A program made the translations under genes and the position numbers. A DNA stretch of 64,000 nucleotides from an uncultured Clostridia bacterium (GTDB lineage Bacteria; Bacillota; Clostridia; Christensenellales; Borkfalkiaceae): contig CATLBN010000006.1 in NCBI GenBank assembly GCA_949878885.1, positions 1 through 64,000 on the forward strand, in the 5' to 3' direction. Shown piece by piece: positions 56,049 through 62,027 of the stretch; positions within the stretch are counted from its first letter, which is position 1, and every line of letters starts with the position of its first letter. Under the pieces are notes generated by a model. The model worked only from the letters and a program-made list of their open reading frames with translations, did not search any database and was not told the origin of the DNA.

Positions 56049-57656
56049 TTAATCCATCATTCTTGCTTCTTCGTAAAGTCTGTTCATAAGACCGTCGGAA
56101 ACGTAATCGCGTATGCGTCCGTAGTAAATAAATACCTGTGAGAAGAATTTGGAGTTGTTTCCGCCTACCACGTAATCGGGCACGTTATTCAGCGCTACTT
56201 TGCTGCGCTCTAAGAATACCTGGGCAAACTCAATTTTTTCTGCATTGGAAAGCTTTTTAATAAAGTCGTCGGTAGGTCCGTTGTAAAGCGTTTCAACGTT
56301 ATATACCGTTTCTTCTTTTTCTTTTCTGGAAGCGAGAGGAGCAAAAGAAGCAGCTCTTTCCGCTTCCTTAGCGTCTTTTTCGGCTTGCTTTGCAGCCGCT
56401 TCTGCGTTCTTTGCGTCGCGAGCCGCTGCTTTTTCCGCTGCCTTGGCGTCTTTTGCCGCCTGTTTAGCTGCGCGCTTTTCTGCCTTTTTGTCCGTTTTCT
56501 TATCGGAAGCTGCGGTTGAAGAAGCAGTTGTGCCGTCTGTTGCCGAAACCGTTGCGGGAGCGCTGTAAGCAATTACAGCGGGTGCTGCCTGTTGCTTTTT
56601 GGCTTTTTTAGCTGCCTTTTTCTTACCGGATTTATAAGCTACAAGTCTTATAATATTGATAATAAACGCAAGCAAAACAACGCCTGCAAGAACATATCCG
56701 AGCAGTTTAACCGAGTATCCGTCGATTAAGAACGCCATTACTATAACAATGATAACGGCGATTGTTTCCAACGCGTATCTTATAACGTTTGTAATAAGCA
56801 TTGCTTTGTTGGTTCTCTTTGCAAGCCCTATCATATCTAATACAAAGTTTATGAATACGAGCGAACCGAGTATCAAAGTTGCTATAAACATTGTCTTCTG
56901 CTTAGCGTCGAGCATAGTGAAAGCATCGGTTTTGAAAGGGTTGGATAAGAACATCATCAAAACGTAAGCTAAACCTTCGCCGCCCTGGTCGCTGTAAATT
57001 CCGGTTGCAAGCTTGCCGCCGAAAATTTGGGAAAGCTTGGGAATAAGCGAACTTACGGGGAACATAAGGAATACCGCAACCGCAGAAAGAAGAAGCAGTA
57101 AAAATTTGACGAGTCCTGAACCTTTTTTAAATATAAAGCTTTGAACTATCAGGAAAAGCAAAGTGCCGCCGAAAGCAATTATAAGCGCGTAGCACCATTT
57201 AAACGATGTAAGCTGACCCGCCAAACCTATTTTAGCTTCCAAATGAATTATCATAAGAGCCGCAAGAGGAATAAGCGCAATAGCTTCTATAAAAGAAGCG
57301 GCTTTAATTGACGTGGAAGCTTTTTTGCTGATAAGCGCGGGAATAAGCGCAAAAATGCCCATTGCCGTAAACAGCGTGTACAAAAGCACCAAAATAACGC
57401 CCAAATCAAACGCCTTTGTGCCGAAGAAACTTACGGTATAAGAATAGGTAAAAGCATTATTTGCTCCCCAATTTTTATTTAAAAGAATTCCTAGCGCCCT
57501 GGGAAGCTGGACTACCATAATGCTTCCGGCACCGGTAACTTCCGTGTTGTTTCCGAGGGGCAAAACCAAACCCAGTATCAGGCATACGAGAGCAAGCGCA
57601 TAAGTTATTAAAGCTGCAATCTTTTTGTTGTTGGGTTTTACCTTATTTTTTCCCAT
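56049..57656 (-). CDS. Polytopic membrane protein with Ala/Lys-rich low-complexity segment
   Basis: Multiple TMs, then AAKQAAKDAKAAEKAAARDAKNAEAAAKQAEKDAKEAERAA. Start MGKNKVKPNNKK preferred (GGAG 9 nt upstream). Confidence 0.65.
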   Translation of the reverse strand: MGKNKVKPNNKKIAALITYALALVCLILGLVLPLGNNTEVTGAGSIMVVQLPRALGILLNKNWGANNAFTYSYTVSFFGTKAFDLGVILVLLYTLFTAMGIFALIPALISKKASTSIKAASFIEAIALIPLAALMIIHLEAKIGLAGQLTSFKWCYALIIAFGGTLLFLIVQSFIFKKGSGLVKFLLLLLSAVAVFLMFPVSSLIPKLSQIFGGKLATGIYSDQGGEGLAYVLMMFLSNPFKTDAFTMLDAKQKTMFIATLILGSLVFINFVLDMIGLAKRTNKAMLITNVIRYALETIAVIIVIVMAFLIDGYSVKLLGYVLAGVVLLAFIINIIRLVAYKSGKKKAAKKAKKQQAAPAVIAYSAPATVSATDGTTASSTAASDKKTDKKAEKRAAKQAAKDAKAAEKAAARDAKNAEAAAKQAEKDAKEAERAASFAPLASRKEKEETVYNVETLYNGPTDDFIKKLSNAEKIEFAQVFLERSKVALNNVPDYVVGGNNSKFFSQVFIYYGRIRDYVSDGLMNRLYEEARMMD

Positions 57657-57995
57657 TTTGCAAATCTCCATAAAGTTAGTTTATTTAAGACGCCTTTTGG
57701 CGGATAAAGCATAGTTTATCTATATGATAGTACGGCTTGTACACTGCTTATTTTATATCAAAAGCAAACATATGTCAAGAATAAAATATAAATTTTTGTC
57801 TTAAAATGCGGTTTTTTTATGATATTATGCAATGAATTTAAAAAAGACAAAGCATATTCCTGGGTGTAAAGTCTATAAAATATAAACTAATTGTGTGCGT
57901 TTTAATAAGAATTAATACCGCTTTATGCGTATATGTTAAAAACTAATTGCAAAAATTATGATGTATTGATATAATATATGCGGCGAGGTAAAGTA

Positions 57996-58403
57996 ATGTA
58001 CGGAGACATAACCGATAAAAACGATAGGCGCATTGCTGCCGAAAACTATGAAAGAGTGCCTAATATGCCGAAGTTAAGCGGTTTAAACGCGGAAAAAACC
58101 AAGCTTATTTCTCTGTCGGACATTTTAACGGGTTTGGAAAAACCTGCGCGTGAAAATCTTTCGTCGGGGTTTGATTTAAAGAGATTTGCAAAAATTTTCG
58201 AAGACGAAAATATGATGCTTACGATAACCGCTTTTTTGGAAAACGGTATGAACGTATCGCTTACCGCGCGAAAGCTGTATATGCACCGCAATACGCTGAT
58301 TTACAGGCTTAACTCAGTATATAAAAAAACGGGATTGGATATACGCAATTTCGATATGGCGGTTACGTTTTGCATTCTGCATTACCTATACGTTTTAAAA
58401 TAA
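57996..58403 (+). CDS. Short PucR/CdaR-type HTH protein
   Basis: LTITAFLENGMNVSLTARKLYMHRNTLIYRLNSVYKKTGLDIRNFDMAVTFCI matches the PucR-type HTH pattern. Confidence 0.82.
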   Translation: MYGDITDKNDRRIAAENYERVPNMPKLSGLNAEKTKLISLSDILTGLEKPARENLSSGFDLKRFAKIFEDENMMLTITAFLENGMNVSLTARKLYMHRNTLIYRLNSVYKKTGLDIRNFDMAVTFCILHYLYVLK

Positions 58404-58427: not shown

Positions 58428-59750
58428 TTGAAATCTTCTACGTTAAAAAAAATTATTACGGCGGTTGTTGCCGTAATAATAGCGCTTGCAGCTTTCGGCG
58501 GCGGATATCTTACCCGTTCGCTTTTAAACGGCGGCAAAGTCAATTCTTACAAATGGGTGTTGGAAACCATAAATAATAATTACTTCGGCGAATTCGACGA
58601 AGACGCGGCTGCCGGTCTTTCGCTTAAAGCCATAGCGGCCCAGCTCGACCCTTATTCGGAATATTACACAGCCGAGGAGTATGCGCAGATTAAAAAAGAC
58701 AACGCTGGCGTAAAAAGCGGCATAGGCGTTTCCTACGGCTTTATAGAAGGCGAAGGCGCCAGAATGGTTACGGTTTTCGGCAATTCTCCCGCTTATAAAG
58801 CCGGGCTTCGCAGCGGAGATACCGTAACGGGCGCAACCGACGGCAACGGCGTAAAATATCAATTTAAAACTGCTTCCGATTTTACGCAATTTATGGAAGC
58901 CCGCGTCACGGGCGAAAAATTTACGCTTACGGACGGCACGGCGGATTTTACAATGAGCAAGGAAGAATACGCCGCAAGCTATACTTTTATGGCAACGCGC
59001 GATACCGCTTGGGAGTATGTTTCTTCCGCGGACGGCAGCGGCTTTGCGCTTGTGGAAAACGGCGCGGAAGCAAAAAAGTTTTTGCCGGAGGACGCCGCTT
59101 ATATATCGCTTGCGCAGTTTTACGGTTCGGCTGCGGCGGAATTCGGTTATCTCGTAGAAAAATTCAACGCCGAAAACTGTAAAACGCTTATATTGGATTT
59201 GCGTAATAACGGCGGCGGCTACGTTTCGGTAATGCAGGATATAGCCGGTTATTTTACTTCTGCGCTTTCCGATAAAAAACACGTGGCAATGACCGCAAAA
59301 TATAAAAACGGAAAAGAGCAAACGGAGTATTGCGCAAAATATCCCGCCGAAAAATCCGTGCCTTCGGATACGAAAGTGTACGTGCTAGCAAACTCCGGTA
59401 CCGCAAGCGCTTCGGAAGCGCTTATAGGCGTTTTGGTAAGTTACGGCGTTTTGGATTATAAAAACATATTTTTATCGGATTTTTCAAAAGATTATCTTAA
59501 TTTTGCGGGTACTGGAGCAAAAACCAAGCAATCTTACGGAAAGGGAATAATGCAGTCTACGTTTACCAATATATTTACGGGAGAAGCAATAAAGCTTACA
59601 ACGGCAAAAATTTATTGGGCTAACGGCAAATGCATACACGAAGTGGGACTTACCGAAACCGACGGCTGCCGTTTGGCTCCGGCGCAATGGAGCGCGACAA
59701 AGGACGAAGCCGAACTTAAATACGTTGTAAACGCAATTTCAGCAGATTAA
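58428..59750 (+). CDS. S41 family C-terminal processing peptidase (TTG start)
   Basis: N-terminal TM; PDZ-like segment; LILDLRNNGGGYV; NSGTASASEALIGVL (Ser); SYGKGIMQ (Lys). Confidence 0.93.
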   Translation: MKSSTLKKIITAVVAVIIALAAFGGGYLTRSLLNGGKVNSYKWVLETINNNYFGEFDEDAAAGLSLKAIAAQLDPYSEYYTAEEYAQIKKDNAGVKSGIGVSYGFIEGEGARMVTVFGNSPAYKAGLRSGDTVTGATDGNGVKYQFKTASDFTQFMEARVTGEKFTLTDGTADFTMSKEEYAASYTFMATRDTAWEYVSSADGSGFALVENGAEAKKFLPEDAAYISLAQFYGSAAAEFGYLVEKFNAENCKTLILDLRNNGGGYVSVMQDIAGYFTSALSDKKHVAMTAKYKNGKEQTEYCAKYPAEKSVPSDTKVYVLANSGTASASEALIGVLVSYGVLDYKNIFLSDFSKDYLNFAGTGAKTKQSYGKGIMQSTFTNIFTGEAIKLTTAKIYWANGKCIHEVGLTETDGCRLAPAQWSATKDEAELKYVVNAISAD

Positions 59751-59802: not shown

Positions 59803-60018
59803 TCAAAGAATAGGGTTTTTAACGTTTTTTATTCTTCTTGCCGAAAATATTACGCAAACCAGAAATCCGCCGTCCGAACGTGTAATTTCAAGTCCGGTAT
59901 CGCCGTCGCATTCAAAATATTCTTCTGTTATCCGTTTTAAATCTTTTAAAAACATAGCCCTCTCAAAGTCGGACATATCCTCTCTGTCCAATGAAATAAC
60001 GCCGTTTATTCCGTTCAT
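59803..60018 (-). CDS. Small MinE-like protein
   Basis: 71 aa; FLKDLKRITEEYFECDGDTGLEITRSDGGFLVCVIFSAR follows the MinE C-terminal pattern; ATGA-type overlap with the upstream MinD-like gene. Confidence 0.5.
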   Translation of the reverse strand: MNGINGVISLDREDMSDFERAMFLKDLKRITEEYFECDGDTGLEITRSDGGFLVCVIFSARRIKNVKNPIL

Positions 60019-60746
60019 ATTTTATCCCTCATTTTTCTTTTAAAATAACCGCTCATACCTGCGTAGCTTTTAAGCACGTTGCAGTAGCTTTGCTTTTTTC
60101 CCGTTAAAGTATCCGCAGCCATTGCAAAAGCTTTTTGAGTGCCGCTACGCCATTTACCTGCCGAAACGGTAAGGTCTTCGGGAATAACCGCTTTAAGCGG
60201 AACGTGCAATACGGTTGCAATTTCCTGCGCAGTCATAATTTCTCCGTTCAAAATCTGTCCGCCGTTTATTTTGTTTACCACAAGACCTATATCTTTTATG
60301 CCGCGGTCGTAAAGAGCCGAGCGGCAGCAATCCGCGCTTTTTACGGAAGGCAGAAACGGTTCTGTAACAATCATTGCGCAATCGCAAATATCTATTGCTA
60401 TTTTATCCAGCAACACGTAATCAAACAAACCATCTACGTCGGCAACGGCTTTTACGGCGGCGGATAAATCTTTTAGCCCCAAAGACGGCATAAAACAAAG
60501 ATTTGGCGTTTTATTGTGCGAAAGTATGGTTTGTTTTGCCCTGCAAGCGCCGCGTTCGTAGTCTGCAAGGGTAAAAACCTGCATATTTTTCAGTCCGCCC
60601 ATTATAAGCGCGCAGCCGCTTTTTGTATCTCCGTCTACAATAAGCGGCCGTTCGCCTGCTTCGCCCAGCGCCAAGCCCAAACCCAGGCAGCAAGTGGTAA
60701 CGCCCGTGCCGCCTTTAAAGCTTGTCATATATATTTTTTTAGCCAT
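60015..60746 (-). CDS. MinD/ParA-like ATPase with atypical P-loop
   Basis: MAKKIYMTSFKGGTGVTTCCLGLGLALGEAGERPLIVDGD; LVVNKINGGQILNGEIMTAQEIATVLHVPLKAVIPEDLTVSAG resembles the MinD C-terminal half; basic C-terminal tail YFKRKMRDKI. Confidence 0.8.
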   Translation of the reverse strand: MAKKIYMTSFKGGTGVTTCCLGLGLALGEAGERPLIVDGDTKSGCALIMGGLKNMQVFTLADYERGACRAKQTILSHNKTPNLCFMPSLGLKDLSAAVKAVADVDGLFDYVLLDKIAIDICDCAMIVTEPFLPSVKSADCCRSALYDRGIKDIGLVVNKINGGQILNGEIMTAQEIATVLHVPLKAVIPEDLTVSAGKWRSGTQKAFAMAADTLTGKKQSYCNVLKSYAGMSGYFKRKMRDKI

Positions 60747-60895: not shown

Positions 60896-61144
60896 ATGAA
60901 GCTTTTGGAACAGATTTTAAGCGAAATGGGCGCGGACACGTTAAAATCATTTACGGTAATTCCGCGTTTCGGCGGTTATTTCCGCAGCGTTAAAAGTATA
61001 AACGAATTCGGCGAAAACAAAATAGTGCTTGTTTTACGCAAAGAAGTGGTTACGGTAACGGGCGAAAAGCTTGAAGTGGGCAAATATTTCGAAGAAGATA
61101 TTTTTATTAAAGGCGAAATAAAGGAAGTTAAAATTGATAAATAA
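60896..61144 (+). CDS. yqfC: YabP/YqfC-family sporulation-type protein
   Basis: Small beta-rich protein directly upstream of yqfD; start moved to MKLLEQILSEMG (ORF track starts too early). Confidence 0.75.
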   Translation: MKLLEQILSEMGADTLKSFTVIPRFGGYFRSVKSINEFGENKIVLVLRKEVVTVTGEKLEVGKYFEEDIFIKGEIKEVKIDK

Positions 61145-62027
61145 TTATTGCGTGCTTTCGGTTGTTTCTACTGCCGAGGCTGCTCTTAAAAAATTAAAAA
61201 AGTCTAAGATAGCCGTTTACGACTGCCGCAAGCGCGGCGCCGAATTTATATTCGGAGTAAAAGATAAAGACGTTAAAAAAGTTTTTGCAATTTTTTCAAA
61301 GCCGTGTTATAATATAACCGTAGTTGAAAAGAGCGTTCGCAAAAGTCTTTTTTACGGGCTTGTTTTGCGCGCGGGGCTTGCCGCGGGAGCGGCCGCTTTT
61401 ATTGCGGCTGCCGCGCTTGCAAACTTTTTTGTTCTTAAAATAGAAGTGAGCGGAAGCGGCAGTTATTTGAAAAACGAAGTTTTAAAAATAGTAAGCGACG
61501 AAGGAGCGGCTAGATTTAAGCCTTATTCGTCTTTCAACGGTTCCGTTGCAACGGGCAGAATACTTGCTTTGCCTTCCGTAACGTTCTGCAATATAGAAAA
61601 ACGCGGCAGCGTGTTGGTTGTAGACGTGCAGGTTGACGAGGAGCATTACGGAGCAGTTTCTTCAAAGCCTCTTGTTTCCGACGCGGACGGCGTTGTGCGC
61701 AGCATTGTGGCTGTTTGCGGTACCGCGGCGGTAAGCGCAGGCGATACGGTTAAAAAGGGCGACACGCTTATTTACGCGCATACCGTATCCGGCGAAGAAA
61801 CAGTAAAATGTCTTGCGGCAGGTTATGCGGAATTGGAATGCAAAAAAACGTGCGAATATTTTGCAAGAGAGGAAAACGACGAAAATTTGAAATATGCGCT
61901 TTCTTCTTTGCTGTTGGAGAGCGAAACGGTAATTTCGCACACTTACAAAACAGTTCCCGTAGACGGCGGAGTTAACTACGTTATAGATTTTACGTATTTG
62001 CATAAAGTAAGTATAAATTTGACTTAA
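61134..62027 (+). CDS. yqfD: YqfD-family sporulation-type membrane protein (TTG start)
   Basis: Single TM after N-terminal domain; DADGVVRSIVAVCGTAAVSAGDTVKKGDTLI segment typical of YqfD; yqfC-yqfD-phoH order. Confidence 0.82.
   Translation: MINNYCVLSVVSTAEAALKKLKKSKIAVYDCRKRGAEFIFGVKDKDVKKVFAIFSKPCYNITVVEKSVRKSLFYGLVLRAGLAAGAAAFIAAAALANFFVLKIEVSGSGSYLKNEVLKIVSDEGAARFKPYSSFNGSVATGRILALPSVTFCNIEKRGSVLVVDVQVDEEHYGAVSSKPLVSDADGVVRSIVAVCGTAAVSAGDTVKKGDTLIYAHTVSGEETVKCLAAGYAELECKKTCEYFAREENDENLKYALSSLLLESETVISHTYKTVPVDGGVNYVIDFTYLHKVSINLT

Follow-up and report, generated by a model that had tools for sequence, protein, structure and literature searches.

Candidatus Coproplasma, a genus of uncultured animal-gut bacteria, carries a MinD-MinE gene pair in which both partners have probably lost their part of the ATPase chemistry, and which selection appears to have kept for a function that does not involve cycling, most likely that of a scaffold or marker. 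We found the pair in the window, by which we mean the whole 64,000-nucleotide stretch of DNA analyzed here. Our reading draws on homology, operon structure, fixation across the genus, losses paired between the two proteins, purifying selection, and the absence of both MinC and a second MinD. ATP-driven self-organization has its textbook case in Min patterning. In this genus, the catalytic lysine, both switch motifs, and the activating helix are gone and both partners are still kept under selection, which would make it a natural experiment on MinD and MinE without an ATP cycle or MinC.

The MinD-like protein and its altered motifs

The two genes overlap and are read from the same strand. Their features are as follows, with the basis for each in parentheses.

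60015-60746, (-): MinD-like gene, 243 aa, ATG start, TGA stop (NCBIfam minD_bact, AlphaFold model, Foldseek)
60693-60716, (-): deviant P-loop KGGTGVTT, residues 11-18 (sequence and genus census)
60402-60407, (-): switch II deletion junction, Asp114 (60405-60407) followed by Lys115 (alignment)
60018-60065, (-): basic C-terminal tail, residues 228-243, YAGMSGYFKRKMRDKI (alignment, model, tail statistics)
60015-60018, (-): ATGA shared by the two reading frames, with translational coupling probable (read from the sequence; nearly all genus loci keep the -4 spacing)
59803-60018, (-): divergent MinE, 71 aa (profile match, ATGA overlap with the MinD-like stop)

The larger protein is of the MinD line, in the deviant Walker A family of ParA/MinD proteins. 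It matches the NCBIfam model minD_bact with 94.2 bits (E 8e-27), under the TIGR01968 equivalog cut-off of 212.9 bits, and Pfam returns CbiA (35.8 bits). Its AlphaFold model (pLDDT 94.5) adopts the MinD fold: the best PDB match in Foldseek is E. coli MinD-ATP (3q9l, E 6e-17, TM 0.82), and MinD-MinE complexes are also among the best matches. Orthology is indicated by its status as the sole MinD of its genome, by the adjoining minE, and by its placement as sister to the canonical MinDs of the family. An earlier note on this DNA, made from the letters alone, had assigned the open reading frame at 60015-60746 to the MinD line; the coordinates are right, and MinD is the top match in both Foldseek and profile searches. 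The note had also suggested looking for a canonical minD elsewhere. The window genome (1.49 Mb, 97% complete) holds a single copy of the MinD-like gene, and a search of the genome for P-loop proteins yielded no second MinD. We rejected the existence of one on reading the sequences of the remaining ParA/MinD-superfamily and P-loop matches, which are Soj (with a KGGVGKTT P-loop, beside ParB), Mrp, and members of GTPase and ligase families (Ffh, FtsY, PyrG, and FTHFS).

The P-loop was correctly read in that note as KGGTGVTT: the signature lysine K11 is kept, and Val16 (codon 60699-60701, (-)) stands in place of the P-loop lysine. We found this departure to be genus-wide. Our census comprises 83 distinct genus sequences, with the P-loop readable in 81, set against 41 canonical MinDs from other genera (21 at the level of the order and 20 from twelve sampled sister genera). 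Lysine occupies position 16 in 0/81 of the former and 41/41 of the latter, so its absence reflects neither chance nor sequencing error; the agreement of all 81 genus sequences likewise rules out an error of assembly. The genus instead has Val (44), Ala (30), Cys (3), Thr (3), or Gly (1) at this position. At position 11, 69 sequences have Lys, 10 Arg, and 2 Gly, and conservation of Gly10 has been lost. All 41 comparison proteins carry KGGVGKT/S and D[CS]PAG. Close homologues with KGGVGKTT, which the note had named as evidence that would count against it, did not appear; the nearest canonical proteins come from other genera and share about 38% identity or less.

The switch regions have changed as well. 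Nine residues that follow D114 in 41/41 relatives (xPAGxxxGF) are gone from 83/83 genus sequences, reducing the canonical D-[CS]PAGI-[ED]xGF-HRA to D-KIA in the MinD-like protein. The earlier report of a lost switch II thus stands for the PAG loop and needs correction for the Walker B/switch II Asp, which is retained as D114 and is invariant (83/83). By our own alignment, from which the E. coli numbering is taken, switch I positions G42, L43, N45, and D47, invariant or nearly so in relatives, have been lost in the genus, and the GLxN motif with them; position 137, which aligns with E. coli D152, has been lost as well. Other sites are held: T17 (T or S), D38, D40, and D114 are essentially invariant across the genus, and R69 and K71 are invariant. 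Newly conserved, genus-specific positions include T59, A100, E129, D147, N161, and G163, and a basic residue has been gained at position 200 (94% versus 20% in relatives). The block NKINGGQ, previously offered as a MinD-like hallmark of the C-terminal half, turns out to be a genus-specific replacement of canonical NRxRGD.

In the alignment, the C-terminal tail coincides with the membrane-targeting helix of MinD, and a strongly basic helix is predicted at residues 230-242. The basic character ascribed to it earlier is real; canonical relatives, however, have a more amphipathic helix (mean z of the hydrophobic moment 2.0, versus 0.6 in the genus). Membrane targeting by this predicted helix is likely by homology.

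The MinE partner, MinC, and the surrounding genes

Elsewhere in the genus the two genes are joined by ATGA in this way too, as are minD and minE in most canonical pairs from the order and family. The 71-aa ORF family shows sequence and profile similarity to MinE: in hhalign, the genus profile matched order-level MinE at 97.8% (E 1e-12) and family-level MinE at 99.2% (E 1.7e-19), with a reversed control at 0.2%. Pfam MinE (PF03776) detected 3/32 genus members (best 4e-4) and 15/17 order-level members; a scan of the window's 71-aa protein alone gave no match to this model, and a PDB profile search with the alignment of these ORFs found nothing. The structural model (pLDDT 80.5) shows the alpha-beta-beta order, and the C-terminal alpha-beta-beta region is retained. 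Foldseek of this model against the PDB gave no significant match, and the case for MinE homology is accordingly built on profiles and position.

The N-terminal part has eroded. Genus ORFs have a mean of 9.5 residues ahead of the conserved Asp; canonical MinE has 18-20. An Arg eight positions upstream of this Asp, found in 31/34 canonical MinE proteins, occurs in essentially none from the genus. The contact helix of E. coli MinE, which activates MinD, spans residues 13-31 (PMC6803595); judged by position, the lost Arg and N-terminal segment are this MinD contact helix. The partner, its parallel decay, the missing MinC, and the fixation of these traits across the genus all go beyond the earlier note.

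MinC_C was absent from 201/201 family genomes tested and from most of the order, and control genomes gave matches; one genus genome (G062) produced a weak match under the cut-off. Since MinC is absent family-wide, its loss is older than that of the ATPase motifs. Canonical minD-minE without MinC, that is, MinDE without its known FtsZ inhibitor, is the rule in the family and common in the order. FtsZ is present in the window genome. DivIVA gave no match there, which is weak evidence because the model also matches unrelated control genomes.

In nearly all genus loci with enough flanking sequence, the pair is convergent to a PDZ/S41 protease gene that is itself preceded by a small HTH gene and a membrane protein gene, and in a subset the pair adjoins yqfC-yqfD-phoH; many genomes are entered twice in the underlying table. 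The neighbors of minD in canonical relatives are unrelated to these. The flanking genes of the window include the following.

56049-57671, (-): membrane protein with a long Lys/Ala/Glu-rich stretch, a genus-conserved neighbor of the pair
57978-58403, (+): 141-aa protein, conserved beside the S41 protease
58428-59750, (+): PDZ/S41 protease, a genus-conserved neighbor of the pair
61134-62027, (+): YqfD homologue, 297 aa, with a match confined to the first ~230 positions of a 379-position profile

The membrane protein and the protease are possible clients of the pair, or may simply be linked to it. As read from its sequence, the C-terminal part of the 141-aa protein resembles a helix-turn-helix of the PucR/CdaR type, and the sensor domain usual in that type is absent. 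YqfD is shortened in all genus members listed. SpoIVA is found in the window genome and was not found in many congeners, a sign of mixed sporulation gene content within the genus.

Distribution and selection within the genus

Coproplasma corresponds to GTDB genus UBA11940 and is placed in the Borkfalkiaceae, Christensenellales (PMC8035907). An orthologue of the MinD-like gene is present in 65/73 genus genomes, at 38-83% identity, and the genus copies form a single clade with 100/100 support. All 20 MinDs from the twelve sampled sister genera are canonical, with a MinE-like ORF adjoining in 18/20. Because the losses fall on one branch and the sister genera are canonical, a direct comparison of ancestral with derived forms is possible. 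Between close genus pairs (dS below about 1), dN/dS is 0.03-0.14, and we saw no internal stops in the genus MinD-like hits; at the level of sequence, these observations indicate that the gene is functional. A pseudogene, which such constraint and open frames in all genus hits contradict, was rejected. The altered MinD is a fixed trait of the genus, and most species keep the gene pair under strong selection.

At least three genomes have lost minDE outright with the flanking genes kept (G024, locus L212; G064, L214; G042, L215). The S41 protease is retained at all three loci. In G024, yqfC and yqfD are missing too and phoH is directly next; yqfD is likewise missing together with minDE in G042. 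With at least three genomes lacking both genes, the pair is dispensable in some species. Of the remaining genomes without a match, one (G022) carries the MinE-like gene at the end of a contig; the others, affected by contig ends or a missing locus, may or may not lack the pair.

Possible functions and known comparison systems

We propose that the ancestor of Candidatus Coproplasma had an ordinary MinD-MinE pair from which MinC was already gone. Four elements would then have gone from the MinD side (the lysine of the P-loop, GLxN of switch I, the PAG loop of switch II, and the equivalent of D152) and two from the MinE side, namely the arginine of the contact helix and about half of the N-terminal region. 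Selection would have retained the resulting pair for a function that needs no ATP-driven cycling. The MinD-like protein, not hydrolyzing ATP, would be held in one state, anchored to the membrane by its basic C-terminal helix, and would form a static complex with the remaining dimerization part of the MinE-like protein. For a client, with the Z-ring as one candidate, this complex could provide a scaffold or mark a position. The earlier note had envisaged a possible ATP-binding, weakly hydrolyzing localization factor, by comparison with the P-loops of CpaE/TadZ-type proteins. The MinD-like protein is probably impaired in ATP hydrolysis and plausibly a localization factor; ATP binding appears doubtful, and the comparison with CpaE/TadZ did not hold.

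Mutant proteins offer some guidance. B. subtilis MinD K16A does not bind ATP, is monomeric, and remains membrane-bound with a slow off-rate, and its gradient is lost (PMC13246001). Losses in the natural protein go beyond K16, and the simplest reading would be a non-cycling protein at the membrane with the MinE remnant as its structural partner. In E. coli, MinD N45 is thought to be the site of MinE action and D152A is not stimulated by MinE, which ties switch I N45 and D152 to MinE-stimulated hydrolysis (PMC6803595). We hold more tentatively the broader notion that the genus as a whole possesses a natural Min system without an ATP cycle or MinC, a static or otherwise-powered membrane scaffold that positions something.

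A remodeled nucleotide-binding switch, the main rival, seems unlikely to us, and it stays a candidate because the Mg-site residues are conserved. Such a protein would bind ATP and Mg through T17, D38, D40, D114, K11, and a substitute basic residue, and would dimerize with ATP and hydrolyze it slowly or not at all, like TadZ. The persistence of these four residues and, for the most part, of K11 (Lys or Arg in 79/81) is what would be expected if a Mg-nucleotide site remains, and thus argues against a dead ATPase; the gained basic position 200 and invariant R69/K71 point the same way. There is also precedent. E. rectale TadZ, in which both lysines are lost, reportedly keeps ATPase activity by using a lysine that a nearby helix supplies, and K-to-A mutants of a mycobacterial MinD-like protein kept activity (PMC10482377), so loss of K16 alone is no proof of an inactive protein. 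The less amphipathic C-terminal helix and the genomes without the pair also count against the reading that we propose. What speaks against a switch is that K16, the D152 equivalent, and both the switch I motif and the switch II loop have been lost, that Gly10 is relaxed, and that the MinE-like partner has no activating helix.

We think it improbable that the pair is a sporulation-specific positioning factor, kept since these bacteria place an asymmetric septum. The yqfC/yqfD and sigF-type genes nearby, SpoIVA in the window genome, and the joint absence of yqfD and minDE from G024 and G042 would fit such a role, but the MinD-like gene is kept without a SpoIVA match in, for example, G002, G014, G015, G026, G029, G035, and G044. 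Its retention does not track SpoIVA, and the presence/absence data do not require a sporulation-only role.

Slightly less probable again is a decaying relic, in which the genus has lost the MinDE role and the pair is disappearing. The family-wide absence of MinC, the loss of catalytic parts on both sides, and the three or more outright deletions with flanks in place are compatible with decay; the low dN/dS between close pairs, uninterrupted frames, conserved ATGA overlap, and new genus-specific conserved positions amid deep within-genus divergence (38-83% identity) speak against it. A CpaE/TadZ-type pilus localization protein, the comparison drawn earlier, is scarcely credible on fold, profile, or context: a weak match to a CpaE-like actinobacterial NCBIfam family (29 bits versus a cut-off of 154) is far outscored by MinD models, MinD comes first in Foldseek and profile searches with no TadZ entry among the matches listed, there is no N-terminal receiver-like domain, and the partner is MinE. 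Clustering with CpaE/TadZ in pilus loci was not seen either; the neighbors are the S41 protease, HTH, yqfCD, and phoH, with no pilus genes in the surrounding loci. With MinD first, MinE as partner, and pilus genes absent, the operon is therefore a MinDE pair in which both partners have lost parts of the ATPase cycle.

In a literature search with subscription journals mostly outside its scope, we found no description of a MinD that naturally lacks the P-loop lysine, has a MinE partner, and is fixed genus-wide. The MinD-like protein shares with bacterial MinD (E. coli and A. aeolicus; TIGR01968) its fold, minD-minE gene order, signature lysine, Walker B Asp, and basic C-terminal helix. It differs in its missing P-loop lysine, GLxN, PAG loop, and D152 equivalent, in the lack of a MinC partner in the genome, and in a score under the equivalog cut-off; to canonical MinDs of the same family it is 31-38% identical. 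Its partner resembles MinE (PF03776) in its place right after minD, the ATGA overlap, the C-terminal alpha-beta-beta region, and profile similarity; it has lost the arginine of the contact helix and the greater part of the anti-MinCD region. E. rectale TadZ is likewise a ParA/MinD-superfamily protein that has lost its P-loop lysines in nature, but it belongs to another subfamily, with a pilus context, an extra N-terminal domain, and ATPase activity that is reportedly kept. Haloferax MinD4 and B. subtilis K16A both display MinD behavior that is independent of the Walker lysine, oscillation in the former and membrane binding in the latter. K16A is a laboratory mutant in which Min function is lost. 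MinD4 oscillates independently of its Walker motifs (PMC11621097), so MinD proteins can move without them; in MinD4, unlike in the protein described here, these motifs are intact in nature.
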